Part shown: piece by piece, positions 18,501 through 56,077 of the stretch
Layout: every line of letters starts with the position of its first letter
Numbering within the stretch: the stretch's first letter is position 1
Virus record (IMG/VR): IMGVR_UViG_3300017917_003016
Span: 1-64,000 of that record
DNA from: a virus
Strand: one strand, 5' to 3'
DNA length: 64,000 nucleotides
Position numbers and translations under genes: made by a program
Notes under the pieces: generated by a model
Database searches by the model: none
What the model saw: the letters and a program-made list of their open reading frames with translations, nothing else
Told to the model about the DNA's origin: nothing

Positions 18501-18887
18501 GTTTTACCTGGGGTTGGACTAGTCGCATACGGGCAAAAAACTCGCTACAGTACCGATAGCGCACTAGACCGTATAAATGTAGCAAGATTGGTTGTATATC
18601 TACGCACAATATTAGCCAAGGCTGCTGCTCCGTTTATATTTGAACCCAATGACGCTATTACACGTAGTCAAGTAAAAGCCGTGTTTGATGCAGTGTTTAA
18701 CGATTTGGTTGCAAAACGAGGCATTTACGACTTCCTAGTTGTGTGCGATACAACTAACAATACACCTACTCGTATAGACAACTACGAGTTGTGGATTGAT
18801 ATAGCAATTCAACCAGTTAAGGCTATTGAATTTATTTACATTCCGGTACGCCTACAAAATACTGGAGCAGCACTGACTATAAGTTAA
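15582..18887 (+). CDS. 18: Tail sheath protein gp18
   Basis: A 1101-residue contractile sheath subunit. The N-terminus (MASLTSPGVSVSIIDQSQF) and the C-terminal ~400 residues (RGILLFNTRRSGYNVKR, APNYPELIQDMI, YPWFAPAGVRRG, NVARLVVYLRTIL, YELWIDIAIQPVKAIEFI) are classic gp18. T4 gp18 is 659 aa. The extra ~440 residues lie between about 130 and 690 and contain several WLDTGNTNW, DLWIDTGD and YRYNGITW type modules, probably displayed on the outside of the tail. Late promoter AATAAATA and a good ribosome binding site precede it. A strong hairpin follows at 18901. Confidence 0.93.
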   Translation: MASLTSPGVSVSIIDQSQFAPTQAGTVPYVLIATAQDKQTPASTLAAGTTIANAEKIITVTSQRDLINTFGTPIFETDASGNPIQGSELSEYGLLAAYSALGVTNTIYVQRANVNLNELTGTSTRPTGIPADGTYWLDTGNTNWGVYTWSPENGFIQKTPTVITDTDYLSSGVPLSTFGVIGEYAVVATSSSNPIYYKGYDNSWTLVGSDSWKSVVPALIGNVASPTVTAGSKLIINGNVVTVAGTTVSSAASAINAAVIPGVSARVNSTSQLEIFVNSNTIIYSNAAGNLRGAIDTATSSEDTLQITKGSVLLGNLDCASNIGLLQDDINYGPSISNNGNTYTYNGPTIHFGAYTNPPAWRTTDVTPRPEDSVWLKTSATGNGANWAIKEYDANLDTWVQFSAPLYLNDSSAINALDPVSGGAGLAAGTLYVKYDTLATDTTTFRPYIKNVSGVLTITGTVAGGSATYVNGDSFRLDVSVPGSATLANATVTLSGTTASALVSGILGAGLPNIISGFNSSGAIYLRHLAGGTIQITQLVGSPLNTAGLLSDSHVQVISAGTIYLASPWTPLTYTYGDTEPFSNPAENTLWYYSNATEVDIMISDGTAWKGYRNVSNDARGYDLTDTDANGVIFSASQPTTQSDGTSQLAAGDLWIDTGDLANFPILYRYNGITWDLLDNADDVSANGIVFADARWSATGNVNVITDTLPTIESLLTSDHIDPDCPDYQLYPRGILLFNTRRSGYNVKRFKSNYFSDEQLATVNSSEADAWVTYSGEDPTTGVPYFGRKSQRSVVVRAMKAAIAESQTLREEGTQFNLICAPNYPELIQDMITLNNDRVNTAFIIGDSPIDLPSNSTALDNWSRNADLASDNGEDGLVSRSEYLGVYYPGGLATNLDGNSVVVPPSHIMLRTMIRSDAVSYPWFAPAGVRRGIIDNVSSIGYVDRADNDTYKSVGITTGLRDVLYRNDVNPLTVLPGVGLVAYGQKTRYSTDSALDRINVARLVVYLRTILAKAAAPFIFEPNDAITRSQVKAVFDAVFNDLVAKRGIYDFLVVCDTTNNTPTRIDNYELWIDIAIQPVKAIEFIYIPVRLQNTGAALTIS

Positions 18888-32412: not shown

Positions 32413-33316
32413 GAGGCATAGTTTGTCTATTTTAAGCCTGTTGCAACAGTATGAGGTCTTTTTAGAAAGTCTCAAACATATCGCTGATATGGGTTGCGGC
32501 AGCGGTGCCGATATAGATTGGTGGGCTACCTTAGAAAACAGCGAGAATCCCCCAGAACCTTATAATTTCAATTGCTTTGCTGTAGACCGCAGTTCGTCAA
32601 AATTAGCACAGGTCCCAAATCGCAAAAATATACATAAAATAAACAATTCCTATGATGCAGAATTTTTATTTCCTGTTCCTATAGATTTTATTTGGGCACA
32701 CGACTCTCTGCAGTACAGCACCGATCCGTTGCATACCCTGCGCAGATGGAATAGTTATATGAATACCAATGGTATGTTAGTTGTAACGGTTCCGCAGCAC
32801 ACAGGAATTGAGTATGGCCGTCAATACAGCAGAGCATACAATGGTTGTATATATCATTATACTCCACTGATGTTAATCTATATGCTAGCAGTAAACGGAT
32901 TTGATTGTAGGGATGCGTATCTGCTAAAACGCTGGCAAGACCCTTGGATTCAAATGGCAGTGTACAAATCAGACGTTCCGGCAATGGATCCAGCAACAAC
33001 TACATGGTTTGACCTAGCAGATAAAAATTTACTACATCCTAGTATTGTCAATAGTTTAAATTCCAATGGATTTATCAAGCAAGAAGAAATTTTAATGCCG
33101 TGGTTAGACAAAGAACTTTATTTTATAGACTACGTTAGTCAACGAATGGAAACTCCTCCGGCCACTGAAACCACTGGTGTTATAAATGACGATGTTACTC
33201 GATCTGACAGAATCAGTATTGAACAACCTAAAGAAGCAGTGCGAGCAACTGAAATATTAAAGCCGCGGCCATTGTTAAATAAACCACCAACACGTAAGAG
33301 TTATAAAAATGCCTGA
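32396..33316 (+). CDS. SAM-dependent methyltransferase
   Basis: A 306-residue protein whose ATG lies directly after GGAGG inside the uvsY 3' end (17-base overlap). Motif I is IADMGCGSGADIDWW (~residues 30-42), an acidic VDRS follows, then FIWAHDSLQYSTDP and GMLVVTVPQHTG, the usual class I methyltransferase order. The C-terminal ~60 residues are low complexity. The substrate is unknown. A methyltransferase generates S-adenosylhomocysteine, which the phage adenosylhomocysteinase at 37561 could recycle. Confidence 0.75.
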   Translation: MPVLVERHSLSILSLLQQYEVFLESLKHIADMGCGSGADIDWWATLENSENPPEPYNFNCFAVDRSSSKLAQVPNRKNIHKINNSYDAEFLFPVPIDFIWAHDSLQYSTDPLHTLRRWNSYMNTNGMLVVTVPQHTGIEYGRQYSRAYNGCIYHYTPLMLIYMLAVNGFDCRDAYLLKRWQDPWIQMAVYKSDVPAMDPATTTWFDLADKNLLHPSIVNSLNSNGFIKQEEILMPWLDKELYFIDYVSQRMETPPATETTGVINDDVTRSDRISIEQPKEAVRATEILKPRPLLNKPPTRKSYKNA

Positions 33317-33746
33317 GAAAATTGTTCTAGTAACCGGCGGTTTTGATCCTATTCATTTAGGGCATATTGAATATTTTACCGAGGCTAAACGTTTAGGGGA
33401 TAAACTAGTAGTAGGAGTCAATTCTGATTCTTGGCTAACACGCAAAAAAGGCAAGGCATTCATGCTTAGATATGATCGCATGCGCATAATTTCTAATTTG
33501 CGCATGGTTGACTATGTCTTAGAATTCAACGACGACGACGATACGGCTAATCATGCTATAAAACTAACCAAACAGACTTGGCCTACAGCAGAAATTATCT
33601 TTGCCAATGGGGGCGACAGAAACAAAGGTAATATTCCGGAAATGTCTATAGAAGGCGTTGAATTTGTATTTGGTGTTGGCGGGACTATCAAAAGATCCAG
33701 CAGCAGTAAGTTGTTAGATGAATGGTGCAGGAATTTCGATAAATAG
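33309..33746 (+). CDS. Cytidylyltransferase-like nucleotidyltransferase
   Basis: A 145-residue protein with the HxGH-type motif GGFDPIHLGHIEY (~10-22), a VGVNSDSWLTRKKG phosphate-binding segment, and GGTIKRSSSSKLL near the end. These are the signatures of glycerol-3-phosphate cytidylyltransferase and of the HldE/RfaE nucleotidyl domain. It would couple CTP or ATP to a sugar or polyol phosphate. It overlaps the methyltransferase end by 8 bases. Its last codons (GAT AAA TAG) contain the late promoter of the next gene. Confidence 0.8.
   Translation: MPEKIVLVTGGFDPIHLGHIEYFTEAKRLGDKLVVGVNSDSWLTRKKGKAFMLRYDRMRIISNLRMVDYVLEFNDDDDTANHAIKLTKQTWPTAEIIFANGGDRNKGNIPEMSIEGVEFVFGVGGTIKRSSSSKLLDEWCRNFDK
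33738..33745 (+). promoter_or_regulatory. T4-type late promoter (GATAAATA) inside a stop codon region
   Basis: GATAAATA is embedded in the final Asp-Lys-stop codons of the previous gene and ends 7 bases before the ATG at 33753. Confidence 0.7.
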
Positions 33747-37560: not shown

Positions 37561-38847
37561 ATGGACTATAAAATAGCAGATATAAATTTAGCCCCATGGG
37601 GACATCGAGAAATAGCCATTGCGGAAACAGAAATGCCGGGGCTAATGAGCGTCCTAGAAGAATATCGCGCCCAGCAACCTCTTAAGGGCGCACGTATAGC
37701 AGGCAGTCTGCACATGACCATACAGACCGCAGTATTGGTCAAGGTTCTAGTTGCATTGGGCGCAGAAGTTCGTTGGTCAAGTTGTAACATTTTTAGTACA
37801 CAAGACCATGCAGCAGCAGCCCTGGCAGATCTAGGTATACCTGTGTTTGCTTGGAAAGGTGAAACAGAAGAAGAATATTGGTGGTGTATAGAACAGACTA
37901 TACAAGGCCCCAACGGTTGGAAGCCCAACATGCTGCTAGATGATGGGCATGATCTTACTTGGTGGGTACATCAGAATCGTCCTGATTTATTAGACAATAT
38001 CATAGGAGTTACAGAAGAAACTACTACAGGTATACATAAGATACGTGAAGCACAGGCCCGCGGCGAGTTCCGCCTGCGTGCTATCAATGTCAACGATTCA
38101 GTAACAAAATCAAAGTTTGACAACCTTTATGGTTGCAGAGAAAGTCTAGTGGACGGCATCAAACGTGCAACAGATGTTATGATTGCTGGTAAGATTGCAG
38201 TGGTTGCAGGATTTGGTGATGTAGGCAAGGGCAGTGCTGCTGCGTTGCGAGCATTGAGTGCCCAGGTCTGGGTAACTGAAATAGATCCTATCTGCGCACT
38301 ACAAGCAGCCATGGAAGGATATCGTGTGGTCACCATGGATTGGGCTGCTGACAAAGCAGACATATTCGTTACTGCCACAGGCAACATCGATGTGATTACA
38401 CACGACCACATGGCAAAGATGAAGCATAACGCCATAGTGTGCAATATAGGCCACTTTGACAGTGAAATTGATATTACTAGCCTAGAAAAGTATGAGTGGG
38501 AAGAAATTAAACCACAGGTTGATCACGTGATATTCCCAGACGGTCGTCGTATTATTGTGCTAGCCAAAGGACGCCTGGTAAATCTAGGCTGTGCAACAGG
38601 GCACCCTAGTTACGTTATGAGTAACAGTTTCACTAATCAGGTCATAGCACAGATAGAACTGTATACCAACTATAAAAATTATGAGGTTGGTGAACTATAT
38701 CTGCTGCCCAAAAATTTAGACGAACTAGTGGCTAAATTACATCTAAAGAAAATTGGTGCAGAGTTAACTAATTTAACCTATGAACAGGCAGAATACATAG
38801 GAGTTGAGGTACATGGCCCATACAAGCCAGACACCTATCGTTATTAG
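37561..38847 (+). CDS. ahcY: Adenosylhomocysteinase (S-adenosylhomocysteine hydrolase)
   Basis: A 428-residue enzyme close to the usual bacterial length. It shows [50 protein letters not shown], the NAD-binding GFGDVGKGS (217-225), [12 protein letters not shown]-type text ([10 protein letters not shown]) and the terminal PYKPDTYRY. It splits S-adenosylhomocysteine into adenosine and homocysteine, relieving inhibition of methyltransferases. It is rare on phages. Two methyltransferases are encoded in the window (32396, 46486). It is last in the desaturase-acetyltransferase-AhcY group and appears intact. Confidence 0.95.
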
Positions 38848-41580: not shown

Positions 41581-41646
41581 ATGTTTGAAATTGTAATCGC
41601 GCTCATAATGGTAGGACTGTTTTGGGCATCATTTGGAAATATTTAA
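41581..41646 (+). CDS. Membrane micropeptide (21 aa) upstream of rubrerythrin
   Basis: TAGGAGATTAT precedes an ATG encoding MFEIVIALIMVGLFWASFGNI, almost entirely one transmembrane helix. The following gene begins 11 bases later with its own AAAGGAG. The strong ribosome binding site makes translation likely. It could be a real membrane peptide or a leader peptide. Confidence 0.5.
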   Translation: MFEIVIALIMVGLFWASFGNI

Positions 41647-41657
41647 AGGAGAAATCA

Positions 41658-42092
41658 ATGAAACTAGTAGGAACAAAGACAGAGCAGCATCTTAAGGACG
41701 CATTTGCAGGTGAATCAAAGGCTAACCGCCGCTATCTATACTTTGCCAACATGGCTGACATTGTAGGCGCACCAGATGTCGCTAACATCTTTCGACATAC
41801 TGCTGAAGGTGAAACCGGCCACGCCCACGGGCATATGGAATACCTAATCAAGGGTGGTTCAGGCGACCCCGAAACTGGCCTTCCGGCCAATGATATCGTT
41901 CAAGCACTGGAAAGTGCTATTCACGGCGAAACACACGAGTACACTGACATGTATCCGAGCATGGCCCGTGATGCACGTGACGAAGGCTTTGACGAAATCG
42001 CTGATTGGTTTGAAACACTGGCCAAGGCAGAGCGCAGCCATGCTGGCAAATTCCAACGCACTCTTGACGCTTTTGTTAAAGAGAACGCATGA
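41658..42092 (+). CDS. Rubrerythrin-type di-iron protein
   Basis: A 144-residue ferritin-like protein; the start at 41658 has AAAGGAG. Iron ligands are visible in GES (Glu19), [10 protein letters not shown] (Glu52 and His), GETHEY (Glu91, Glu94) and AERSH (Glu125, His128). There is no C-terminal rubredoxin domain, so it belongs to the short rubrerythrin group. These proteins reduce peroxide. It overlaps the DUF3501 gene by 4 bases. In proteobacteria, short rubrerythrin genes commonly sit beside DUF3501 genes, so the phage seems to carry a transferred pair against oxidative stress. Confidence 0.9.
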
Positions 42093-42726: not shown

Positions 42727-43464
42727 TTAATTTGTATTAATACGCATTAATCCTAACATAGCGAAAAACCTAACATACCAATACCCTAGATCAAACTCAA
42801 ACCATTTCATGGCTAGATTTAGTCTGTTAGGATTTAAATGATGGTTTGCATGAAGTTCTTCGCCGGCTAGTAAAATGCCAATTGGGAACATATTTACTGC
42901 TTTTCCTGAATTGGGTAGTTTTACATATCTAAATCCCAACTTATGGGTGCCCCAATCTGCAGTTAAAATAACAATATCTGTTATAAAAAATCGATGGATA
43001 GCACCAATTATAAATCCAGATATACCAAACAGCAGAGTATATATTCCCCACAGGATAGTTAACCCTAACGTTGGGTGTTTTTGATAAAATTGTTCAATTT
43101 GGCTAGTGTCCGTTTTTATTTCGGGAGCATAAGTGGCTAAATCTTTAGGACCGATGAATCGAGGTTTGTTCGGGTCATTATGTTTGTAGTCGAGCAATTC
43201 CCTAAGGGATTGTAAATGAGGACTACACGGGTCTTCTTTTTGATCGCTAAATCTATGATGTTTTCGGTGCAAAGCACACAAATGTTGTTGCCAGTTTTGA
43301 TAGGCTAAGCCCATCACTACCCATAAAATAAACCTAAACACTATTGCTAAATTTTTATCAATAACATATTGCTTATGTATAATCGATCGGTGAACTAGTA
43401 GGCTAAATGTTGCCCATAGAAGATGATAACAAAGAAGAAAAAATAATATAGAGTTTATCACCAT
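42727..43464 (-). CDS. Second fatty acid desaturase
   Basis: A 245-residue membrane protein counted from the ATG at 43464; a TTG nine bases upstream (43473) is an alternative start. His boxes are HRSIIH (25-30), HRKHH (66-70) and HANHH (~207-211), the di-iron set of membrane desaturases. Hydrophobic segments are at the N-terminus, ~39-57, ~130-165 and the C-terminus. It is ~100 aa shorter than the desaturase at 35815 and clearly diverged from it. It sits alone on the minus strand with a late-type AATAAATA site just upstream. Probably acyl-chain desaturation in host membrane. Confidence 0.85.
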   Translation of the reverse strand: MVINSILFFLLCYHLLWATFSLLVHRSIIHKQYVIDKNLAIVFRFILWVVMGLAYQNWQQHLCALHRKHHRFSDQKEDPCSPHLQSLRELLDYKHNDPNKPRFIGPKDLATYAPEIKTDTSQIEQFYQKHPTLGLTILWGIYTLLFGISGFIIGAIHRFFITDIVILTADWGTHKLGFRYVKLPNSGKAVNMFPIGILLAGEELHANHHLNPNRLNLAMKWFEFDLGYWYVRFFAMLGLMRINTN

Positions 43465-43482
43465 TGGATCCAATTGAAAAAT

Positions 43483-43753: not shown

Positions 43754-43761
43754 AATAAATA
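43754..43761 (+). promoter_or_regulatory. T4-type late promoter (AATAAATA) for the sugar locus
   Basis: AATAAATA lies 39 bases upstream of the epimerase ATG, with CTGGAGAAATCG before the start. Confidence 0.65.
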
Positions 43762-43800: not shown

Positions 43801-44826
43801 ATGTCAAAAACCGTCTTAGTGACTGGTGGTGCTGGATTCGTTGCACACCATGTCATTGAAAAAATCCTGCGTGAAACCGATTGGAATGTAGTAAGTTTAG
43901 ACCGATTGGACTTTTCCGGAAATCTTAATCGCTTGTGGGACATGGCTCAGGATTTGGATACCACCACTCGTAAGCGCATACGTGTAGTATTCCATGATTT
44001 GCGAGCGGATCTAAACCCGTTGGTACGCCGAGAAATTGGCAAGGTTGACTATGTACTGCATCTGGCTGCAGGTAGTCATGTGGATCGATCAATTGAATAT
44101 CCCATGGAATTTGTTTTAGACAATGTAGTTGGAACCTGTAATGTCCTAAACTATGCTCGTGACCTAGACGGTTTAGAACGATTCATTTATTTCTCAACTG
44201 ATGAAGTATTTGGTCCTGCGCCCGTCGGTGTGGACTACAAAGAGCGAGATCGTTACAACAGTTCTAATCCATATTCTGCCACTAAAGCCGGCGGCGAAGA
44301 ACTAGCCGTGGCTTTTGAAAATACCTATAAGTTGCCGATCTACATCACACATACTATGAATGTGTTTGGTCAAAGACAGCACCCGGAAAAATACATTCCC
44401 ATGTGTATTCGCAAGGTACACGATGGTGATACCATTACTATTCACTCAGACGCTACACGAACAATTCCAGGAAGTCGCCACTATATTCATGCTGCAGATG
44501 TGGCAGATGCTATGTTGTTCTTGTTGAATCTACGGGCAACTTTGGAAGAAGATCACGGCGGAGCCAAATGCCCTAAGTTTAATCTAGTAGGGGCTGAAGA
44601 AATCAATAATCTAGCATTAGCACAGTTAATTGCGGATGTGCAAGGAAAACCACTGCACTATGAAATGGTTGATTTTCACTCAAGCCGGCCTGGGCACGAT
44701 CTGCGCTATAGCCTTAGTGGAGAATACATGAAGAGCCTAGGATGGGTTCCTAGGGTTGCACTTAGCCAACGTATTGGTGAAGTAGTGAATTGGACTTTGG
44801 CCAATGAACGTTGGCTGCGAACTTAA
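43801..44826 (+). CDS. NAD-dependent nucleotide-sugar dehydratase/epimerase
   Basis: A 341-residue extended SDR enzyme: TVLVTGGAGFVAHHV (5-19) binds NAD, LHLAAGSHVDRS follows, and FSTDEVFG plus YSATKAGGE (YxxxK) form the catalytic region. The STDEVFG text is typical of dTDP-glucose 4,6-dehydratases; the length also fits. It would supply a 4-keto-6-deoxy or epimerised sugar nucleotide. It is first gene of the glycan locus with its own late promoter. Downstream a second SDR and a sugar C-methyltransferase could act on its product. Confidence 0.88.
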   Translation: MSKTVLVTGGAGFVAHHVIEKILRETDWNVVSLDRLDFSGNLNRLWDMAQDLDTTTRKRIRVVFHDLRADLNPLVRREIGKVDYVLHLAAGSHVDRSIEYPMEFVLDNVVGTCNVLNYARDLDGLERFIYFSTDEVFGPAPVGVDYKERDRYNSSNPYSATKAGGEELAVAFENTYKLPIYITHTMNVFGQRQHPEKYIPMCIRKVHDGDTITIHSDATRTIPGSRHYIHAADVADAMLFLLNLRATLEEDHGGAKCPKFNLVGAEEINNLALAQLIADVQGKPLHYEMVDFHSSRPGHDLRYSLSGEYMKSLGWVPRVALSQRIGEVVNWTLANERWLRT

Positions 44827-44835
44827 AGGACAGAC

Positions 44836-45576
44836 ATGAGCAAGAATATTGTATTTTTAACTTCTGCGGTTTATACTAATTATGGCATTTATAACCCGCA
44901 AGAACGTATTAAGCAAACACTAGAAACAGCACAGAGTGCCAGAAAGTACATTCCTGACTGCAAGATAATTCTTGTGGACAACAGTAAGGTTGACGTGCAA
45001 AATGACGATAGTGCAGAATTTAATGAACTCATCGATACTGTAGATTACTATATCGACAACAGCGACGATAGCGACATTCAGTATTTTCATAACAATGTTG
45101 CAAACTACGATATTGGCAAAAATGCTATGGAAGCCATGGGCCTGCTCAAAGCCCTGACGTTTATCTATAATGACAGCGATATGATGCAGGAAATCAATCA
45201 AGCGTCTCGCATTTTTAAACTCAGTGGCAGATATTCAGTAACTGACAAGTTTGATATTACCAAATTTGATAATCCTTCAACTCAAGACAAGTACGTGTTT
45301 AAAAAGGCTCAGCCAAGTTGGATTAATCCACAAGACACTGGAGTAAATACCTTGCTTCAGACTCGTCTTTGGAGTTTTACGCCAAGCCTGTACCTAGAAA
45401 CCATGCAGATGTATAGTCATATTATTGAAAATATGATTAATTTATTCAATGCAGGCAAGTATATTGACAATGAGCACAGCATGAGCAAGTTTATTCCTCG
45501 CAATAAACTGGTAGAATTAGAAACGGTAGGTCTAATGGGCAACATTGCTCCTAATGGCATGATGATCATCGATTAA
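44836..45576 (+). CDS. Putative glycosyltransferase-like protein (246 aa)
   Basis: This starts 9 bases after the dehydratase, with AAAGGACAGAC before it. NIVFLTSAVYTNYG and CKIILVDNSKVDV resemble the start of a GT-A fold, and RIFKLSGRYSVTDKFD is a block I associate with sugar-transfer or WavE-like proteins. KAQPSWINPQDTGVNTLLQTRLW follows. Catalytic DxD cannot be fixed (DNS or NDSD are candidates). It overlaps the next gene by one base. The locus context supports a role in sugar transfer. Confidence 0.45.
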   Translation: MSKNIVFLTSAVYTNYGIYNPQERIKQTLETAQSARKYIPDCKIILVDNSKVDVQNDDSAEFNELIDTVDYYIDNSDDSDIQYFHNNVANYDIGKNAMEAMGLLKALTFIYNDSDMMQEINQASRIFKLSGRYSVTDKFDITKFDNPSTQDKYVFKKAQPSWINPQDTGVNTLLQTRLWSFTPSLYLETMQMYSHIIENMINLFNAGKYIDNEHSMSKFIPRNKLVELETVGLMGNIAPNGMMIID

Positions 45577-46499
45577 TGAAGAATGTACTGTTATTAGGGG
45601 CAAATGGATACATAGGGTCTCGTCTTAAGCAGATCTTAAATTTTGCCCACTGTGTAACTGCAATTGATATTGGTTGGTTTAGTCGTGTTGATGACTGCGT
45701 GGTTTCTGACTACAGACATCTGACTAACAGCGAACTTAAAAAGTTTGATGTAATTATCGTTTTGGCAGGTCACAGTTCAGTAAAAACCTGCGAAGGGCCC
45801 ATGCAAAGTCCATGGTTGAACAATGTGACCAATTTTACAGATCTCTTGGCAAAAACGGACGATCAACTGATAATTTACGCTAGTTCTGCCAGCGTGTACG
45901 GCAATAGTCTGCCGGGACAAAAGCATCGCGAAGAGGTGCAGCGGTTTGTCCCTGTTAATAACTATGATGTTACTAAGTATGTGTTAGATCTGCATGCAGA
46001 AGCGGCCTTGTTGCAGGGACGTAAAATCATAGGTCTTCGATTTGGTACGGTTAACGGTTGGTCATCGATTCTGAGAACCGATGTTATGATCAATGCCATG
46101 TATGAAACTGCAGTGCGCAGCGGTAGCATACAGGTGACCAATAGTCATATCAGTCGAGCCATTCTAGGTATCGAAGATCTTTGCCGAGCCATTGATACTT
46201 GTATCAAAAATCCTGTGCCGGGTATTTACAATCTTGCAAGTTTTAATTTAACAGTCAGTGAAATTGCCAACGCTGTGTCAGACAAGTTAGATGTTCGTTT
46301 GGTTGACAACGGTTTGCTGGGCAATGCCTATGATTTTAGTCTAGACACTCAACTGTTTGAAACTACTTATAATTTCAAATTCAAAGAAACACCCGATAGC
46401 ATACTTCAGAGTTTAGTTGAAAAATATTCAACAGCAAAAACTCAAAGACGTGACCAATATATCTACTATAACTGGACGGAAAAAAATGACATCGAATAA
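45576..46499 (+). CDS. NAD-dependent epimerase/reductase
   Basis: A 307-residue SDR with VLLLGANGYIGSRL (4-17), IIVLAGHSS, IYASSASVYGNS and YDVTKYVLDLHAE (YxxxK). The overlap with the previous gene is TAATGAA. Its likely substrate is a nucleotide sugar or a keto-sugar made by the first SDR. The last ~25 residues (KTQRRDQYIYYNW) are an unusual basic/aromatic tail. The next gene starts within this one, so the two are coupled. Confidence 0.8.
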   Translation: MKNVLLLGANGYIGSRLKQILNFAHCVTAIDIGWFSRVDDCVVSDYRHLTNSELKKFDVIIVLAGHSSVKTCEGPMQSPWLNNVTNFTDLLAKTDDQLIIYASSASVYGNSLPGQKHREEVQRFVPVNNYDVTKYVLDLHAEAALLQGRKIIGLRFGTVNGWSSILRTDVMINAMYETAVRSGSIQVTNSHISRAILGIEDLCRAIDTCIKNPVPGIYNLASFNLTVSEIANAVSDKLDVRLVDNGLLGNAYDFSLDTQLFETTYNFKFKETPDSILQSLVEKYSTAKTQRRDQYIYYNWTEKNDIE

Positions 46500-47706
46500 C
46501 TGTAAAGAACTAACAGAATGCCTGTGCTGTGGTAGCCGCTCTCTAAAAGAAGTACTAGATTTAGGCGAGCAGCCAATGGCCAACAGTTTTATAACATCAC
46601 CTGACGAATCAGAATTGACCTTTCCTCTGCGCCTTAATCTCTGCTCGGGATGTACGCATCTGCAACTTAGCCACGCAGTAAATCCAGATCTATTGTTTAA
46701 AAATTATCTCTATGTCAGCGGTACTAGTCAAACTCTTCGCGACTATTTTGATTGGTTCGCTAATTTTACTTTGCAGTATTTTAAAAATCGTCCTAAAGCA
46801 GTTTTAGATATTGCCTGCAATGACGGTAGTCAATTGAATTCTTATAAGAGTCTTGGTCTCAGAACATTTGGTATTGATCCAGCAGAAAATCTACATAAGA
46901 TCAGTTCTGCCAACCATATGGTTGTCTGCGATTATTTCAGCGACAAACACATTGATGAATTCAAACAACACAAATTAGATATAATTACTGCGCAAAATGT
47001 TTTTGCACACAATAGTTATCCTTTAGATTTTCTTAAGATTTGCAAAGAAATAATGCATGACGAAAGTGTGTTGTTTATTCAAACTAGCCAAGCAGATATG
47101 GTAAAGAACAACGAGTTTGACACCATCTATCATGAGCATCTGAGTTTTTTCAACAGTATGAGTATGAATGCACTAGTAAGTCGCGCTGGCCTGCACTTGG
47201 TTGACATCGTCAAAACCCCTATACACGGCAACAGTTACGTATTTGTTATTCAAAAGAATCCAAGTAATACCGAATTGGTAGACCAGATGCTGCGTAATGA
47301 ACGTGAATTGGGATTACAAAATCTGCAGACCTATAGTGAATATGCAGAAAAGTGTATTAATGTAATTGAAGATCTTAAACAAACGATAATGCACTATCGA
47401 CTGCTGGACTACCATATAATTGGGTATGGTGCTGCTGCAAAAGGTATGACTTTGATTAACTTTGGTGATCTTCATTTAGATTATGTAATCGATGACAATC
47501 CTTTGAAACAAGGAAGATTTTGCCCAGGTAGTCACATACCTGTAGTATCAATTGATATCCTTGACAGCCTGTCTTCAGATGCAAAAGTAGCATTTATACC
47601 ACTAGCATGGAATTTCTTTAGTGAAATTCGAGACAAAATTAAAATCAAAAGAGACAAAACAGAAGATGTTTTTATACGGTATTTCCCTAAAATTAACATA
47701 GAATAA
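46486..47706 (+). CDS. Sugar C-methyltransferase (NovU/TylCIII-like)
   Basis: A 406-residue protein; I choose the ATG at 46486 with GGACGG before it. The N-terminal zinc module is CLCCGSRSLKEVLDLGEQPMAN, then CSGCTHLQL. The SAM domain has VLDIACNDGSQL (~105-116), FGIDPAENL and an IITAQNVFAHN segment. DTIYHEHLSFFN and the C-terminal IIGYGAAAKGMTLIN complete the family layout. These enzymes methylate carbon of keto-deoxy sugar nucleotides, consistent with the dehydratase upstream. Its byproduct S-adenosylhomocysteine is a substrate of the phage AhcY. Confidence 0.88.
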   Translation: MTSNNCKELTECLCCGSRSLKEVLDLGEQPMANSFITSPDESELTFPLRLNLCSGCTHLQLSHAVNPDLLFKNYLYVSGTSQTLRDYFDWFANFTLQYFKNRPKAVLDIACNDGSQLNSYKSLGLRTFGIDPAENLHKISSANHMVVCDYFSDKHIDEFKQHKLDIITAQNVFAHNSYPLDFLKICKEIMHDESVLFIQTSQADMVKNNEFDTIYHEHLSFFNSMSMNALVSRAGLHLVDIVKTPIHGNSYVFVIQKNPSNTELVDQMLRNERELGLQNLQTYSEYAEKCINVIEDLKQTIMHYRLLDYHIIGYGAAAKGMTLINFGDLHLDYVIDDNPLKQGRFCPGSHIPVVSIDILDSLSSDAKVAFIPLAWNFFSEIRDKIKIKRDKTEDVFIRYFPKINIE

Positions 47707-48485
47707 TGCGAACACTAATATCTCATTTTTACAATGAAGAATATCTACTACCGTGGTTCCTAAACCACCACAAGCAGATCTTTGATCATGGCATAATGAT
47801 CGACTATCATTCAACTGATCGATCAGTTGAAATAATCAAAGAAATTTGTCCCACGTGGGACATCGTAACTAGTCGTAATAATGATTTCCAGGCCGACATG
47901 ATCGATGTAGAAGTCAATGAAATTGAAAAACAAATCAGTGGTTGGAGAATTTGTTTAAATGTAACTGAGCAGTTGATTGGCGATTATTCTATCCTAGATG
48001 ATCAACCTAGACAATTATTGATACCTAGTGTATTTTTTGTTGATTGTGATAGAGATCGCCATGTTACACATGATTTACCACTTTACGACCAAAAAACACA
48101 TGGATTTATGTTTGGCGATAGTCCGCAAAACTTTTTAGAACGCCGTAGTCGAAGTCTGCACAACATTCCTGTGCACTATCCTGCTCAGAGTACTCCGCAG
48201 TGTATGGCTCCGGGTCGTCACTGGAATTCATACAATACAGACAAACTAGTGACATTTTACTACGGTTGGTGTCCATTTGACGATGGCGGCATAGCACGTA
48301 AACTACAAATACAGACTCAAATACCTTTGATTGACCGTCAACGTGGTTGGGGATTTCATCATATTACCAACAAGGAAACCCTAACCTGGAGATTGGAAAA
48401 TGAATTCGTACCCAGAGCCAGAAATATTGCCAAGGAAATAGAACCTTATGTTACCAAACATAAAAGTCTTACAAATTTATTATAA
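47706..48485 (+). CDS. Glycosyltransferase (GT2/GT92-like)
   Basis: A 259-residue protein, start overlapping the C-methyltransferase stop. SHFYNEEYLLPWFLNHH, then IMIDYHSTDRSVEIIKE matches the start of family GT2_4/GT92 transferases, and FVDCDRDRHV may carry the metal-binding acidic pair. APGRHWNSYNTDK and YYGWCPFDDGG are conserved-looking. Substrate unknown. It lies inside the sugar operon and overlaps the next gene by 38 bases. Confidence 0.7.
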   Translation: MRTLISHFYNEEYLLPWFLNHHKQIFDHGIMIDYHSTDRSVEIIKEICPTWDIVTSRNNDFQADMIDVEVNEIEKQISGWRICLNVTEQLIGDYSILDDQPRQLLIPSVFFVDCDRDRHVTHDLPLYDQKTHGFMFGDSPQNFLERRSRSLHNIPVHYPAQSTPQCMAPGRHWNSYNTDKLVTFYYGWCPFDDGGIARKLQIQTQIPLIDRQRGWGFHHITNKETLTWRLENEFVPRARNIAKEIEPYVTKHKSLTNLL

Positions 48486-50187: not shown

Positions 50188-50627
50188 ACAAGGCTTTGGT
50201 TTTTCTAAGGGAACGCATACGCCAGGATGAAGTAATTGCTGAATTAAATCCTTGTCTGGTAGTAAAATCAAATAAACCTACTTTTCAACTGCGATTGGCC
50301 GAAGCGGGGTTAATCCTTGATGAAAAAATTGCTGAAGGTCTTAGATTAGATGTGATTTGTGTAGTAAATGAGAATAATTTAAGAATTTATGATCTTGAAA
50401 AATTTTCAAAAGATGATTACCTTGAAAGATTTTACTATACAACTGATCAACTACATTCTAGTTCCTTTTTCTGTAAGCCTGGTGCATTTAGTACGATCAG
50501 CAGTCTTTATAAGATAAATTTTGATAACTATAACTTCAAAAATACTGGCCACGATACCATAGAACTACTTACTGAACAAATTTTCTTTTTGGTTAATCGT
50601 TTGGGATTTGAGGTAAAAATTGGATAA
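50184..50627 (+). CDS. Hypothetical protein (147 aa), TTG start
   Basis: The frame starts with TTG at 50184, overlapping the hydrolase stop (TTGA). The product is soluble, with RLAEAGLILDEKIAEGLRLDV and aromatic-rich LERFYYTTDQLHSSSFF. No family recognised. It overlaps the next gene by 8 bases. Being between the hydrolase and a sugar protein, it is probably an operon member. Confidence 0.45.
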   Translation: MNKALVFLRERIRQDEVIAELNPCLVVKSNKPTFQLRLAEAGLILDEKIAEGLRLDVICVVNENNLRIYDLEKFSKDDYLERFYYTTDQLHSSSFFCKPGAFSTISSLYKINFDNYNFKNTGHDTIELLTEQIFFLVNRLGFEVKIG

Positions 50628-51438
50628 GATATCCAGAGCAGCAGTTTTAGTCGCTGGAGATTTTAGAACTTGGCCCAGAGCCAGCCAATATATCTTTGAC
50701 TATGTTGACGATATCTGTCAACAGGCTGATTATTATTTTGCCACGTGGAGTACTACTAGAGACTATTGGTATCCTCAGATGCATTCAGAAAAAACTCAAA
50801 GAAACGTAACTGATCATGATATCAAAACAAAATTTATTGAAAATAATAAAACACTGATAAATTTTGTTATTGTCACTGATAGACCGGCTGTATTCTATGG
50901 AACTAACTATCTTCAAAGTTATCTAGCCAATCGTGCCAACTTGCTCAAAAGACGTTATGAATTGGACAATGGTTTTGTTTATGACCAAGTATTAGAAATT
51001 CGTCCAGACCTTTATATCTACGATAGCAATAAAGAAAATATAACTAATCTAAAAGATTTTGAATTGCTAATGGATGTTACTCGCGACGTGCTAGTTCCGG
51101 GCTCTCAACTTTTTCCTGAAGCAATAGATTTTTATTATCGAACCAATAGCCTTACCAGTGACATAATGTGTAACAGATTTTTTTATCAAAAATCTTTGCA
51201 TGTTGAATTCTATCGAACACAGTATGATCATTGGCCCTTGCCTATACACAATCACACAATCCTAGCCGACTATGTTTTAGTTAGAAGATTGCATTCGATA
51301 GCCAATCAAGATAGTTTCCAACAAATAGTAATTAGACCCAATTTTCCCCCGGGAGATTTGCGAACTATTCCATATGAAGAATTATGGGAATTACAACGTC
51401 AATTTTTAGATTACACCAGAAGTTTACCAAGAGAATAA
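50620..51438 (+). CDS. Putative glycosyltransferase-like protein (272 aa), TTG start
   Basis: This begins with TTG inside the previous gene. AAVLVAGDFRTWPRASQYIFDYV resembles the start of sugar-transfer proteins found in capsule loci. VLEIRPDLYIYD is like the segment following the nucleotide-binding half, and PGSQLFPEAIDFYYRTN follows. No clear DxD is seen. Related in style to the 44836 product but not obviously homologous. A promoter for the sugar-activation block lies just after it. Confidence 0.4.
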   Translation: MDKISRAAVLVAGDFRTWPRASQYIFDYVDDICQQADYYFATWSTTRDYWYPQMHSEKTQRNVTDHDIKTKFIENNKTLINFVIVTDRPAVFYGTNYLQSYLANRANLLKRRYELDNGFVYDQVLEIRPDLYIYDSNKENITNLKDFELLMDVTRDVLVPGSQLFPEAIDFYYRTNSLTSDIMCNRFFYQKSLHVEFYRTQYDHWPLPIHNHTILADYVLVRRLHSIANQDSFQQIVIRPNFPPGDLRTIPYEELWELQRQFLDYTRSLPRE

Positions 51439-51445
51439 TTAGCCA

Positions 51446-51475
51446 TTGACCTAGGTCAATAAATACGCATATAAT
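51446..51475 (+). promoter_or_regulatory. Sigma70-type promoter of the sugar-activation block, with late motif inside
   Basis: TTGACC (51446) and TATAAT (51470) have an 18-base spacer. AATAAATA at 51458-51465 lies in the spacer, giving a second late reading. Confidence 0.65.
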
Positions 51476-51497: not shown

Positions 51498-51971
51498 ATG
51501 TCCGTAGAATTTCTAACACTTGACAACTGTCATGTAGTGCACAAGCCCTGGGGGCAGGAAACTTGGCTACAAGGTGGCAGTTCCCTATACCCATTTGCAC
51601 TCAAAGAACTAATACTTCGTGAAGGTTTTGTGACTAGTCTGCAGGTTCATCAGTTTAAATCAGAAACCATACACCTGCATCAAGGTCACGGAGCATTAAT
51701 TTATCATCCAACTCCGTTTGACTGCGAAAAATATCTCCAAGGTGGATATTCTCCACAGGATATTCAACAGATCAAAAATGAATTGATAACACAACCACTG
51801 GGACCGGGTGCAGTATTTCACACACCCCCGGGCACTATACATCGTATGGTAGCCTATACAGACCTACACTATACTGAAGCCAGCACCACACAACTAGACG
51901 ATGTTATACGTCTGGAAGATTCACACAATCGAGGACATGGAAGGATAGACTCAGAACATGAGCAACGCTAA
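51498..51971 (+). CDS. Cupin, mannose-6-phosphate isomerase-like
   Basis: A 157-residue single-domain cupin. VHKPWGQETWL (15-25) is the signature of the type II phosphomannose isomerase/GDP-mannose pyrophosphorylase C-terminal family. The metal-binding His/Glu lie in LQVHQFKSETIHLHQGHG and PPGTIHRM. It may bind or isomerise a sugar phosphate, or act as a small regulatory partner of the neighbour. It begins the block with a dual promoter and overlaps the next gene by 14 bases. Confidence 0.75.
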   Translation: MSVEFLTLDNCHVVHKPWGQETWLQGGSSLYPFALKELILREGFVTSLQVHQFKSETIHLHQGHGALIYHPTPFDCEKYLQGGYSPQDIQQIKNELITQPLGPGAVFHTPPGTIHRMVAYTDLHYTEASTTQLDDVIRLEDSHNRGHGRIDSEHEQR

Positions 51972-53550
51972 ACTCACTGTATTAATTCTAGCAGCAGGAT
52001 ATGGCCGCCGTATGGGGCCATTTAGTCGCATGATTCCCAAAGCACTTATACCATATAATAATAAACCTTTGATAAGTCATATCATTGAAAAATTTAATGT
52101 GCACACAAGATTTGTCATAGCCTGCGGACATTTAGGACACATGATCAAAGATTATGTAAATGCAGTTCACGGCGACAAAGACATAGTGTTTGTGGATGTG
52201 CCTAATTATGCAGAAGGTGACACTGGCCCCGCTACCAGTATACAGGCCTGTGCCAAGTACATACGAGGTGGATTCATGTGGTTGGCCTGTGACACTCTTT
52301 TTGATTTTGACTATCATAACAAACTGGATCATAATTGGATTGCCGTGCACCCGGTAGACTCAACGTTGGCACAAGACTACTGCTGGGTAGAGCGAGAGTC
52401 TGATCAGATCATAAATGTCTACAATAAGAAGCCCAGTCGTGATGCTGTGGACGCCTTTGTTGGTCTAATGTATGCTAAGGACGACGAATATCTTGACAAT
52501 CTCATTGCTCGCAAGGCCAAGGAAACCTATGAAGGGTTTAGTGGTCTAACCCTCAAAGCGCATACCATACGCACCTGGAAGGACTTTGGTACCTATGAAA
52601 AATGGGAAGATCTCAATTCAGAATTCACCGATGTTAGTTTCCCTAAACCAGATGAACTATTTTATACAGACAATGGCAAGGTAGTTAAATTTTGGACCAA
52701 TCCCAAACAAGCAGAAATGCGTGTGCGCCGAGCAGACTGTAATCCTGCTGCCATGCCTAGCAATGTTACCAGTGCAGGCAATTTTTTAGTACATGATTTT
52801 GCACAAGGAGACATTGTCTACAATCAGTACACTCCGGAAGTGTTTGCACGTATGCTTGAATGGTGTGAGAACACCCTGTGGAAGCCAGCACCAGAAACAG
52901 AAGAACAGCGGCGATTTGATATATGCCGCAAGTTCTACTACGAAAAGACCATGGAAAGAGTTGAAGCATTCCGTGTCAAGTATTCAGATTGGTCAGAGCC
53001 CTGCGCAGTCAACGGTCAGCAGGTTCTGACCATTAATCAGTATCTAGATCAAATTGATTTCCCATGGTTGTGTTCAACTAATTCGTGGAGTTTCATACAC
53101 GGCGATCTGCACTTTGACAATACCATATATGACAACGGACAGTTTGAAGGCAAAATGAAGATATATGATGCTGAATTAGTGGCTCCTTATAAATTCACTG
53201 CCATAGATTGGCGCACAGATTTTGGTGGTGAACTCTATGGTGATCTTTATTATGATCTAGCCAAGATGCTAGGAGGATTGCATCTCAGTTACAGAGACAT
53301 CAAACATGAGCAGTATGGATATCAAGAACGCGACGACAAGGTCCTGCTAGAGGTGCCCAGTGTACAGAATGTAGATGTCTACGAAAACATGCTGAAAGAA
53401 TGGGTTGAACACCGCGGACTAGAGTGGCGCAAGGTTAAGTTGCTGGTACCGATTATCTATCTTAACATGAGTCCCTTGCATGAATGGCCGTTTGACAAGT
53501 TCCTAGTGGCTCTAGCACAACTACACTTTTCTAAGGTGCTAAATGCTTAA
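51958..53550 (+). CDS. Bifunctional sugar nucleotidyltransferase / APH-type kinase
   Basis: A 530-residue fusion. Residues 1-230 form a nucleotidyltransferase: TVLILAAGYGRRMGPFSRMIPKALIPY, ACDTLFDFDY and WKDFGTYEKWEDL. Residues ~240-530 form a kinase of the aminoglycoside/choline type, with SFIHGDLHFDNTIYD (HGDLxxxN catalytic loop) and AIDWRTDFGG (metal DxR region). The product could phosphorylate a substrate and couple it to NTP. Similar paired activities exist in capsule and phosphocholine-decoration pathways. It overlaps both neighbours by a few bases, showing coupling. Confidence 0.82.
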   Translation: MSNAKLTVLILAAGYGRRMGPFSRMIPKALIPYNNKPLISHIIEKFNVHTRFVIACGHLGHMIKDYVNAVHGDKDIVFVDVPNYAEGDTGPATSIQACAKYIRGGFMWLACDTLFDFDYHNKLDHNWIAVHPVDSTLAQDYCWVERESDQIINVYNKKPSRDAVDAFVGLMYAKDDEYLDNLIARKAKETYEGFSGLTLKAHTIRTWKDFGTYEKWEDLNSEFTDVSFPKPDELFYTDNGKVVKFWTNPKQAEMRVRRADCNPAAMPSNVTSAGNFLVHDFAQGDIVYNQYTPEVFARMLEWCENTLWKPAPETEEQRRFDICRKFYYEKTMERVEAFRVKYSDWSEPCAVNGQQVLTINQYLDQIDFPWLCSTNSWSFIHGDLHFDNTIYDNGQFEGKMKIYDAELVAPYKFTAIDWRTDFGGELYGDLYYDLAKMLGGLHLSYRDIKHEQYGYQERDDKVLLEVPSVQNVDVYENMLKEWVEHRGLEWRKVKLLVPIIYLNMSPLHEWPFDKFLVALAQLHFSKVLNA

Positions 53551-54013
53551 GAGATTTATTCTAGATGTAGATGGGGTACTGAACGATGGCATGCTCTACT
53601 GGGGCGTAGATGGCAAGCCGTTCAAGGCATTTGGCAACTACGACCACGATGGTCTTAAGATCTTACGCCAGCATTTAGACATTGAATTTATCAGTGCTGA
53701 CCAACAGGGTTGGGCCATAACAGAAAGCCGCATAGTCAAACATATGAAGTTTCCCTTGACCATGGTCAAAGAAGCGGATAGGTTGAATTGGGTATTGTCC
53801 AGAGGTGACACTGCGGAAACAGTGTTCATGGGCGACGGTCCTTATGATGCAAAAATATTTCCACATGTGGCTCTGAGCATAGCACCTGCACAGGCGTGGA
53901 ATACCGCATGCTCTGCTGCAACTTATGTAACACCCCGTAAAGGAGGCCGCGGCGCTGTAATGGACGCCTGCGTTTATATTATGAATAGGATGGGAATCGA
54001 ACATGAATTTTAG
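53543..54013 (+). CDS. HAD phosphatase (KdsC-like)
   Basis: A 156-residue HAD protein. Motif I FILDVDGVLNDG carries the nucleophile Asp and the DxDG acid; motif II/III regions include EFISADQQG and MGDGPYDA. No cap domain is evident, as in KdsC and the C-terminus of NeuA-type enzymes. It probably removes phosphate from a sugar phosphate. It overlaps the kinase fusion by 8 bases and the aldolase-like gene by 11 bases. Confidence 0.83.
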   Translation: MLKRFILDVDGVLNDGMLYWGVDGKPFKAFGNYDHDGLKILRQHLDIEFISADQQGWAITESRIVKHMKFPLTMVKEADRLNWVLSRGDTAETVFMGDGPYDAKIFPHVALSIAPAQAWNTACSAATYVTPRKGGRGAVMDACVYIMNRMGIEHEF

Positions 54014-54986
54014 ACTGGGATTTGGGCCTATGAGCCCTGAAGTAATACGTGCAATCTGTACATACTCGCATGATACCAAACGGCCACTGATGATCATTGC
54101 CAGCCGCAATCAAGTTGATGCTGACAGTGGTTATGTCATGACCACACCAGAACTGCGACAACTATTAGACACACTGCCAACTGACCATGTGTGGATGTGT
54201 CGCGATCACTGCGGTCCTTATTTCCTAGACAGCGAGAAGAATCTCAGTCTGCGCAAGGCCATAGAAGCAACTAAGAAAACCATAGCCTATGACATAGAAC
54301 AAGGGTTTGACCTCATACACATAGACACCAGTAGAGTTGATGATACCTATGGTGTTGCTGAAGAACTGTTTAATTTTTGCCTAAGCCTTAAGACCGACAT
54401 ACGTTTTGAGTTTGGTACCGAAGAAAACGTTGGTGTTGCTGCGGGTGCGGTCAAGTATCGTTCAGATGTGGCCTTTGCCAAGAACATTCCAAACATTGAA
54501 TTTGTAGTTGCACAGACAGGTAGTCTGTGTTTTGAAGACCGCCAGGCTGGAACCTTTGATACTGAAACAGTTCGTAGTCTAGTAAAAGAAGCAGAATTCA
54601 ACGGAGTCAAACTCAAAGAACACAATGCCGATTATCTTACACCTGACCAAGTACGTCTTCGCAAGGCCGCCGGTGTACATGCTATGAACATAGCACCGCA
54701 ATTGGGCGTGGTACAGACTAAACTACTTAAAGAACTTTGCTTGAGTCGAGTGGGGCAAGATCTTTGGGATCCCTTTGCTCAGAAAGTCCTAGCCAGCGGA
54801 CGTTGGAAGAAATGGACTAACAGTGATCAGGATGATCAAAAGGTCATAGTCGCAGGACATTACTGTTTTGGCACTGCAGAATATCGGGCAATATTAGATG
54901 GTCTGAGCCAACACGCCAATTGGGATGACGAAATTCAGCAGGCACTTTATCAGGTATTTGATACCTATACAGATAATCTAGCATGA
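54003..54986 (+). CDS. GatZ/KbaZ-like class II aldolase-type protein
   Basis: A 327-residue TIM-barrel-type protein. MIIASRNQVDADSGYVMTT, WMCRDHCGPYFLDSE, EQGFDLIHIDTSRVDD and FEFGTEENVG line up with the ATSNQVNQxGGYTG, GGDHLGP and HLDAS segments of the tagatose-bisphosphate aldolase subunit GatZ. Such proteins also occur in capsular sugar loci. It may make or stabilise synthesis of a keto-sugar phosphate. Start overlaps the HAD gene and its stop overlaps the next start (ATGA). Confidence 0.72.
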   Translation: MNFRLGFGPMSPEVIRAICTYSHDTKRPLMIIASRNQVDADSGYVMTTPELRQLLDTLPTDHVWMCRDHCGPYFLDSEKNLSLRKAIEATKKTIAYDIEQGFDLIHIDTSRVDDTYGVAEELFNFCLSLKTDIRFEFGTEENVGVAAGAVKYRSDVAFAKNIPNIEFVVAQTGSLCFEDRQAGTFDTETVRSLVKEAEFNGVKLKEHNADYLTPDQVRLRKAAGVHAMNIAPQLGVVQTKLLKELCLSRVGQDLWDPFAQKVLASGRWKKWTNSDQDDQKVIVAGHYCFGTAEYRAILDGLSQHANWDDEIQQALYQVFDTYTDNLA

Positions 54987-56077
54987 TTGTATTATTCAAC
55001 GTTAAGATCACTGACGTGCGCATGGGTTATCCCTATCGCCGCGGCGAGTGGATGCCCGATCCAGAGAGATTTGATGTATTTCGTTACTGTTTAGCCAGTA
55101 CCGCAGAATTAGGGCCCCTGACCAGTCGTTTTGTATTTTGTATAACACTTGCACCTGAACTAGCACATAGGCAAAGTGAACTAGATGCTTATATGCGTGA
55201 TCTATTTCCTAGGGAAAAATTAGAAATTATTTGGCAACGCTGTGATTATGGGCGTGATTGGCGCAGGATTTGTGACCAATACCTCACCGATCCTAACGAA
55301 CTAGTTTGGCTAGCCTGCAACGATGATCATATCTTTTTAGACAGCGACCTAGACACAGTTAAGAGTGCAATCAAACATTTGAATCTAGATTCAGATCCCA
55401 ATGCGGTGTTTTACTACAGCCATTGGCCAGAACAAATGCGCATGGCCAATCATTATCATGCGGAATTAACCCAAGATGGTTTACTGGTAAAATATCCCTG
55501 GGAAACCTTTGATGGCATAATGATACTCAAAGCAGGTCGTTTGTCCGGGTATTTTGACCGTGACTATGGCAATGCTGCCATGTTCAAAGTTGATTATCTT
55601 GGTGCATATCATAATTATCAAGCACCTGGTCCTGTGTATGCTCCAACTAAAGAGATAGTTCGTCACTATGAGGGTTATAGTCATGTTAATCACGAAATGC
55701 CACAGCACCTAGCCAATGTAGTTCCTCCCCTGTTTATTCCTCCTGGATTTTTTGAAAATAACATGCAGGTTCGTGTAGGTTATCATGAACGAGATAACAA
55801 CTCTACAAACTTTAATCCTGCAGCAGAGTGGCTATACAATACCAATCCTGCAGGCACAGACTATCGTTGGCATGTCAAGGACATACCTCTGTTTTGGCAG
55901 AAGCACATAAGACAAATTGATCATGCTGATGATTATGATGATATTCTTATGAAACGGGCTAGGGATGCTGCTTTTCTTGCCGCAGCACGTGTACCGATGA
56001 AGTGCTTTGGCATAGACTTTAACCACACATCTGTGCCCCCCAACAGTTGGTTTCAAAAACACCTGTTGTATCGCTAG
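54983..56077 (+). CDS. Putative glycosyltransferase ending the sugar locus (364 aa)
   Basis: A protein coupled to the GatZ-like gene by a 4-base ATGA overlap. WLACNDDHIFLDSDLD (~109-123) looks like the metal-binding acidic site of a GT-A transferase. HYEGYSHVNHEMPQHL and PGFFENNMQVRVGYHERDNN are His/Asn-rich and conserved in appearance. The product could transfer the sugar made by the upstream enzymes. The family is not recognised, so this is pattern only. An early promoter follows 9 bases after the stop. Confidence 0.45.
   Translation: MIVLFNVKITDVRMGYPYRRGEWMPDPERFDVFRYCLASTAELGPLTSRFVFCITLAPELAHRQSELDAYMRDLFPREKLEIIWQRCDYGRDWRRICDQYLTDPNELVWLACNDDHIFLDSDLDTVKSAIKHLNLDSDPNAVFYYSHWPEQMRMANHYHAELTQDGLLVKYPWETFDGIMILKAGRLSGYFDRDYGNAAMFKVDYLGAYHNYQAPGPVYAPTKEIVRHYEGYSHVNHEMPQHLANVVPPLFIPPGFFENNMQVRVGYHERDNNSTNFNPAAEWLYNTNPAGTDYRWHVKDIPLFWQKHIRQIDHADDYDDILMKRARDAAFLAAARVPMKCFGIDFNHTSVPPNSWFQKHLLYR

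Follow-up and report, generated by a model that had tools for sequence, protein, structure and literature searches.

A putative sugar-activation cassette with a GatZ-type enzyme in a large aquatic phage and related modules in bacteria and archaea

Introduction

Four overlapping open reading frames (ORFs) lie at positions 51498-54986 of the first 64 kb (hereafter, the window) of a 201,732-base virus record, IMGVR_UViG_3300017917_003016 in IMG/VR. What would a large aquatic phage, the carrier of this cassette, make with a cupin, a nucleotidyltransferase fused to a kinase (NTK), a HAD phosphatase (HAD) and a GatZ-like enzyme (ALD)? An initial annotation, which had only the sequence at its disposal, described the set as a compact sugar-activation pathway. 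All four ORFs are present as described, with overlaps of 14 nt (cupin/NTK), 8 nt (NTK/HAD) and 11 nt (HAD/ALD).

51498-51971, + strand: cupin, mannose-6-phosphate isomerase (PMI)/ketol-isomerase-like, 157 amino acids (aa)
51958-53550, + strand: NTK, nucleotidyltransferase (residues ~1-225) fused to APH-fold kinase (residues ~226-530)
53543-54013, + strand: HAD, KdsC-type HAD phosphatase, 156 aa
54003-54986, + strand: ALD, GatZ/KbaZ-like Zn retro-aldol enzyme, ketose-phosphate epimerase or aldolase, 327 aa

The family labels also hold (NTP_transf_3, E 1.6e-13; GatZ_KbaZ-like, E 1.5e-10; KdsC, E 9e-16), and the families and the gene layout together bear out four sugar-activation-type enzymes in a single transcription unit. 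Computation covered the protein families, their conserved residues, the order of the genes and the promoter motifs, and from these we infer substrates, step order, direction, product and acceptor. The cassette very likely makes an activated sugar or polyol. In the scheme that we propose, ALD would remodel a common ketose phosphate, in the simplest case fructose-6-phosphate (fructose-6-P), by Zn-dependent retro-aldol/aldol chemistry, and the PMI-like cupin would interconvert the resulting ketose (phosphate) and an aldose. Removal of the old phosphate would fall to the KdsC-type HAD, after which the APH-fold kinase half of NTK would phosphorylate the anomeric carbon and the nucleotidyltransferase half would couple the sugar phosphate to a nucleoside triphosphate (NTP). 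The product would be one unusual nucleoside diphosphate (NDP)-sugar, serving as substrate for the glycosyltransferases of the genomic island in which the cassette lies. If fructose-6-P were the input and the specificities of GatZ and PMI were unaltered, the route would lead via tagatose-6-P and talose-6-P to NDP-D-talose, which is a guess. We give roughly even chances to the scheme as stated, namely a mobile and uncharacterised route from a ketose phosphate to an NDP-sugar. A wider proposal is more tentative: that an undescribed rare-NDP-sugar pathway, with a GatZ-type retro-aldol epimerase at its core, is common to T4-like phages, Pelagibacter, Prochlorococcus, Candidate Phyla Radiation (CPR) bacteria and DPANN archaea, and that late in infection the phages add its sugar to their own virions.

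Conserved residues and folds of the four proteins

All four proteins look like active enzymes, as predicted from their retained motifs. ALD matches PF08013 with 40.8 bits (cut-off 26.7), in an alignment that spans residues 12-111 only. Its AlphaFold2 model, with a predicted local distance difference test score (pLDDT) of 95.5, is closest in a Foldseek search to the GatZ-like structures 3txv and 2fiq, with template modelling (TM) scores of 0.83-0.85, and class II aldolases come next. GatZ and KbaZ of E. coli, which were annotated for long as non-catalytic aldolase chaperones, are C4 epimerases that convert fructose-6-P to tagatose-6-P (PMC11907403). The mechanism modelled for GatZ is a Zn retro-aldol/aldol reaction, with Zn on His88, His257 and Glu171 and with Asp87 as the catalytic residue (PMC11907403). 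Asp87, His88, His257 and Glu171 align with D68, H69, H207 and E140 of ALD (positions counted by hand on the alignment). Across 159 copies, D68, H69 and H207 are invariant save gaps, and so is E136, which lies near E140; at E140 itself, Glu is found in 126 copies and Asp in 32. When ALD is compared with the three-His Zn site of class II aldolases, H69 and H207 are conserved and no third His was found by sequence; the acidic E136/E140 stand at the position of the Glu ligand of GatZ. The initial label, 'GatZ-like aldolase', is thus sound in its first half, by both PF08013 and fold. Its second half needs to be corrected to 'GatZ-type Zn retro-aldol enzyme', because GatZ and KbaZ themselves epimerise fructose-6-P/tagatose-6-P. 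Whether read as epimerase or as aldolase, ALD would carry out the same chemistry on a keto-sugar phosphate.

The nucleotidyltransferase half of NTK matches NTP_transf_3 with 51.6 bits (cut-off 27), and 54 of 55 viral copies retain its G-x-G-x-R..K, D112 and D209 motifs; the remaining copy has a gap. In the AlphaFold2 model of NTK (pLDDT 92.8), this half is similar to RmlA, GalU and MurU (TM 0.75 to MurU 4y7t, normalised by target length); it also resembles cytidylyltransferases of the CTP:phosphocholine, ribitol-5-P and inositol-1-P types. As for the kinase half, 21 of 40 family members match APH (PF01636) at E≤1e-3, with a best E of 2.8e-10. Residues H381, D383, N388 and D417, which form the HGDxxxxN loop and the metal-binding Asp of DWR, are found in all 55 viral copies, and both motifs are invariant in every cellular copy having the kinase domain.

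The HAD protein matches the KdsC family of NCBIfam with 58 bits, below the curated cut-offs of 208 and 106.95, and KdsC structures were also matched in the PDB. D8, D10, G11 and D98 of the DxDG and GD motifs are conserved save one gap. The cupin alone gives a weak score (14.6 bits, below the Pfam cut-off of 23.6) against the C-terminal domain family of mannose-6-phosphate isomerase (PF01050). However, 31 of 33 relatives match this family at E≤0.01, and the family profile finds PDB structures of cupins, among them D-lyxose isomerase and PMI. Q49, H51, E56 and H115, which we take to be Gln/His/Glu/His metal ligands as in PMI, are retained in 51 of 51 viral copies; in cellular cupins H51, E56 and H115 are invariant, and Q49 is found in 33 of 35, with His in the other two. 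The initial annotation allowed the cupin either to isomerise or to bind. Isomerisation is favoured and binding less so, because the nearest likeness is to sugar-phosphate/ketol isomerases such as PMI and D-lyxose isomerase.

Gene order and selection in viruses

A scan of IMG/VR with ALD yielded 79 loci, and gene-order counts were made on the 47 in which the sequence extends 4.5 kb or more upstream of ALD. Among these, the cupin is present in 46, NTK in 45, HAD in 38 and a gene for an AroE-like protein in 17. Of the 47 loci, 25 show cupin-NTK-HAD-ALD exactly, and another 13 have AroE added before HAD, so that the order recurs in 38 of 47 loci with or without the AroE-like gene. Because some of the loci are near-duplicates, these numbers count contigs and not independent events. 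The AroE-like proteins match the N-domain of shikimate dehydrogenase and, by eye, possess the motif residues Lys (SxxMPxK) and Asp (N-x-D). The module genes show ~0.02-0.23 nonsynonymous substitutions per site (dN), with synonymous substitutions (dS) near or beyond saturation, and the module is under strong purifying selection. The repetition of the gene order in dozens of viral contigs and the low dN at near-saturated dS indicate that the cassette is not a chance assembly.

A DNA search of a cultured-phage collection with the cassette gave no match; in protein searches of this collection, only Marine virus AG-345-E15 has NTK and ALD together. In the latter (L081, 3704-9536), a second pair, kinase + nucleotidyltransferase-HAD, lies near the NTK-ALD pair, and GHMP-kinase and HddC-like genes were seen by eye. 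A Listeria match in the same protein searches was set aside as a catabolic locus of the phosphotransferase system (PTS) type. No module was found in a plasmid search. In some phages and in Prochlorococcus, a small SnoaL-like protein follows NTK (L054, 6484-6813; L058, 6969-7286; L129, 13864-14193; L153).

Distribution in cellular genomes and mobility

A genome scan with ALD identified 80 cellular loci, and in ~25-30 of these NTK plus HAD and/or cupin genes lie close to ALD. The same families thus cluster in bacteria (Pelagibacteraceae, Prochlorococcus, other Pseudomonadota, Omnitrophota, Planctomycetota and CPR bacteria) and also in DPANN archaea (Woesearchaeota, Pacearchaeota and Nanoarchaeota). 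Several of the cellular modules whose neighbourhoods were examined adjoin flippases, glycosyltransferases or C-methyltransferases; genes for SnoaL-like proteins and C-methyltransferases also recur in the neighbourhood of the module. A reductase is often added in cells, either AroE-like (9 loci) or a short-chain dehydrogenase/reductase (SDR; 8 loci), with both in none of these loci, and this mutual exclusion fits one replaceable redox step. Most other cellular loci (Bacillota and Atopobiaceae) have ALD alone, many within PTS operons. In Woesearchaeota/Pacearchaeota (L088, 6349-7518; L104, 5847-7037), a KdsC-type HAD and a second nucleotidyltransferase domain form one fused protein.

In the ALD tree, which was built quickly and has long branches, the window copy falls inside a clade of 55 viral rows with a support of 92 by the Shimodaira-Hasegawa-like approximate likelihood ratio test. 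At least five changes between virus and cell labels are required on starred branches, which suggests that the module crossed between viruses and cells on more than one occasion.

Promoters and the glycan island

The dual promoter mentioned in the initial annotation is supported by two overlapping elements upstream of the cupin gene.

51446-51475, + strand: sigma-70-like promoter TTGACC-18-TATAAT, 11/12 consensus matches
51459-51465, + strand: ATAAATA, resembling a T4-type late promoter and overlapping the sigma-70-like one

The window contains 16 ATAAATA sites, and 14 of them (positions 1190-51459) fall no more than 100 nt before an ORF on the same strand (binomial p ~2e-16); no permuted motif with at least five sites comes near this enrichment. 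One of these ORFs is tail-sheath-sized (15582-18887, 1101 aa). From this enrichment, the tail-sheath-sized ORF included, ATAAATA is very probably the T4-type late promoter of the phage. In close relatives (e.g. L001, L005, L007, L008 and L028), a TTGAC..TAnAAT-like element likewise stands before the cupin gene and the arrangement is kept, whereas more distant relatives often retain ATAAATA alone at this position; the strict motif is present there in 28 of 49 viral loci.

The four genes are as the initial annotation described, but the cassette is part of a larger glycan island (43.8-56.1 kb), at the end of which it lies.

43801-44826, + strand: NAD-dependent nucleotide-sugar epimerase/dehydratase at the island start (Epimerase, E 8.8e-45), preceded by ATAAATA at 43755
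45576-46499, + strand: second NAD-dependent epimerase/dehydratase family protein (Epimerase, E 5.1e-16)
46417-47706, + strand: sugar C-methyltransferase, TylC3-type (Methyltransf_13/23/14); first of two possible starts, the other at 46489
47706-48485, + strand: GT2-like glycosyltransferase (Glyco_tranf_2_4, E 7.2e-6, slightly below cut-off)
50620-51438, + strand: glycosyltransferase-like ORF directly upstream of the cassette, with no convincing Pfam match
54983-56077, + strand: fifth ORF, glycosyltransferase-like, family unassigned, in translational overlap with ALD

The fifth ORF shares 4 nt with ALD and gave no convincing family in Pfam, NCBIfam and PHROG searches; members of its family occur in 51 of the viral loci and are absent from the cellular ones. 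The ORF at 50620-51438 has relatives in L018, L039 and L046 and is, in our reading, similar in style to module-adjoining ORFs of L088 and L061. A GT4 glycosyltransferase is encoded farther upstream of the cassette. Also in the window are an RfaE/TagD-like cytidylyltransferase-family protein (33309-33746, outside the island) and an S-adenosylhomocysteine hydrolase (37561-38847; AdoHcyase, E 1e-126), which perhaps supports the C-methyltransferase of the island. Rubrerythrin-like (41622-42092) and fatty-acid-desaturase-like (42727-43473) ORFs were recognised by eye.

Possible acceptors of the sugar and alternative products

Several observations weigh against the proposed scheme. Lys279 and Glu44, which are reported to separate GatZ from class II aldolases (PMC11907403), are replaced in ALD by the invariant Asn229 and the near-invariant Ile32. 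GatZ specificity therefore cannot be assumed for ALD; a function identical to that of GatZ was considered and is not claimed, and the exact reaction and substrate may differ. ALD belongs to a subfamily without a characterised substrate, product or structure. In the window protein, the kinase half of NTK scores 17.5 bits against PF01636, below the cut-off of 23.2, and its profile found no convincing relative in the PDB, both of which weaken the assignment of phosphorylation to the anomeric position. The usual substrates of KdsC-type HADs are 3-deoxy-ulosonates. Finally, the AroE/SDR step that is frequent elsewhere was not seen in this phage, and the scheme does not explain its role.

As to the acceptor, the late promoter and the lack of both a dCMP hydroxymethylase and a flippase of the family searched point to cytoplasmic attachment at a late stage of infection, with virion proteins as the most likely target, a proposal that we hold at about even chances. 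The flippase search found no Polysacc_synt (PF01943) protein in the phage record, with a working positive control, but PF01943 was the sole marker of export and the record is not established as complete, which tells against this argument. The sugar may instead remodel the host surface (lipopolysaccharide or capsule) and exclude other phages, as the cellular copies in surface-glycan loci with flippases and glycosyltransferases would suggest. This is a serious but less probable alternative, since the cassette is under a T4-type late promoter and no PF01943 flippase is present, although a host flippase could serve.

The product may also be an NDP-alditol or another non-aldose: ALD and HAD would yield a free ketose, an AroE-like, SDR or host reductase would reduce it, and NTK would activate the polyol, as in the CDP-alditol pathways of capsules. 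The frequent and mutually exclusive AroE-like or SDR oxidoreductases and the cytidylyltransferase-like half of NTK are in line with this route. We nevertheless consider it unlikely, because the AroE-like reductase is less constant (17 of 47 viral loci) than the cupin isomerase (46 of 47) and a search of the 201.7-kb record for an AroE-like protein, run without a positive control, gave no match. An equally unlikely alternative, put forward in the initial annotation, is that ALD is a true aldolase that joins dihydroxyacetone phosphate and an aldehyde into a ketose-1-phosphate, which is then dephosphorylated and activated. The fold of ALD is related to class II aldolases, the motif places N229 at their substrate-binding Asn (Lys279 in GatZ), and a phosphatase would be expected next in such a pathway; however, the closest characterised relatives are the C4 epimerases GatZ and KbaZ, and this reading names no aldehyde partner. 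Hypermodification of the phage DNA, as in T4-like phages with glucosyl-/arabinosyl-hydroxymethylcytosine or in phage Thanatos with its pentose, is most improbable: T4-like phages do encode nucleotide-sugar enzymes for such use (PMC12838424, PMC6024577), but the thymidylate synthase/dCMP hydroxymethylase family (PF00303) is absent from the 201.7-kb record by a search whose positive control worked, and the homologous cellular modules lie in surface-glycan loci.

If the NDP-sugar scheme is true, it would give GatZ-type enzymes an anabolic role. Surface sugars determine which phages infect which abundant aquatic bacteria, and a mobile cassette for a new activated sugar, passed among the dominant microbes of marine and fresh waters and their phages, would give glycobiology a new building block. 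Phage-autonomous glycosylation would become testable with four small enzymes.

Comparison with known systems

Nucleotide-sugar enzymes of large phages and viruses are already known as a kind (PMC12838424, PMC4691112). The initial annotation knew of no phage system with this exact set and considered it a candidate new system. This stands in that no characterised pathway with the gene set was found among the open-access papers searched, most subscription journals lying outside the search. The novelty is not that of a four-gene phage system, however, but of a widespread viral and cellular module, often with an AroE-like or SDR protein as the fifth enzyme, and the cassette carries a real chance of a new activated sugar.

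ALD shares with GatZ/KbaZ (PF08013) the fold, D68, H69 and H207 and the Glu/Asp at E140; besides the Lys279-to-Asn and Glu44-to-Ile replacements, it differs in being ~100 residues shorter than 2fiq and in lying within a biosynthetic operon, whereas GatZ/KbaZ lie in hexitol-catabolic ones. The cupin shares a family profile with the C-terminal cupin of PMI, together with the invariant H51, E56 and H115 and the nearly invariant Q49, but is a stand-alone domain that scores below the Pfam cut-off. Like KdsC and KDN-9-P phosphatases, HAD is a small protein carrying DxDG and GD motifs; in contrast to them, it falls under the curated cut-offs, and no KDO or NeuB-type synthase was seen in the island. 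Among cultured phages, Enterococcus phage 9183 (gp046-gp047; L163, 5645-7620) encodes an NTK homologue (24% over 94%) that adjoins a gene annotated as phosphoheptose isomerase/capsule protein. The stretch shown has no gene annotated as aldolase or cupin. This phage is a tractable system for the NTK-type fusion enzyme.

The GmhA-HldE-GmhB heptose pathway has the same types of enzymes as the cassette, namely an isomerase, a bifunctional kinase/nucleotidyltransferase and a HAD phosphatase. However, it uses an SIS isomerase and a ribokinase-like kinase instead of a cupin and an APH kinase, its nucleotidyltransferase is of another family, and the GatZ-like enzyme is extra in the cassette. In the MupP-AmgK-MurU pathway of anabolic MurNAc recycling in Pseudomonas, a HAD phosphatase, an anomeric kinase and a nucleotidyltransferase act in series (PMC5371407). 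The cassette would follow this series too, with a MurU-like nucleotidyltransferase, but its kinase and nucleotidyltransferase are fused, its HAD is KdsC-type, and an isomerase and a retro-aldol enzyme are added. The anomeric kinase AmgK has the APH fold. Precedents exist for every type of enzyme in the proposed scheme, its last three steps being represented in series by MupP, AmgK and MurU.

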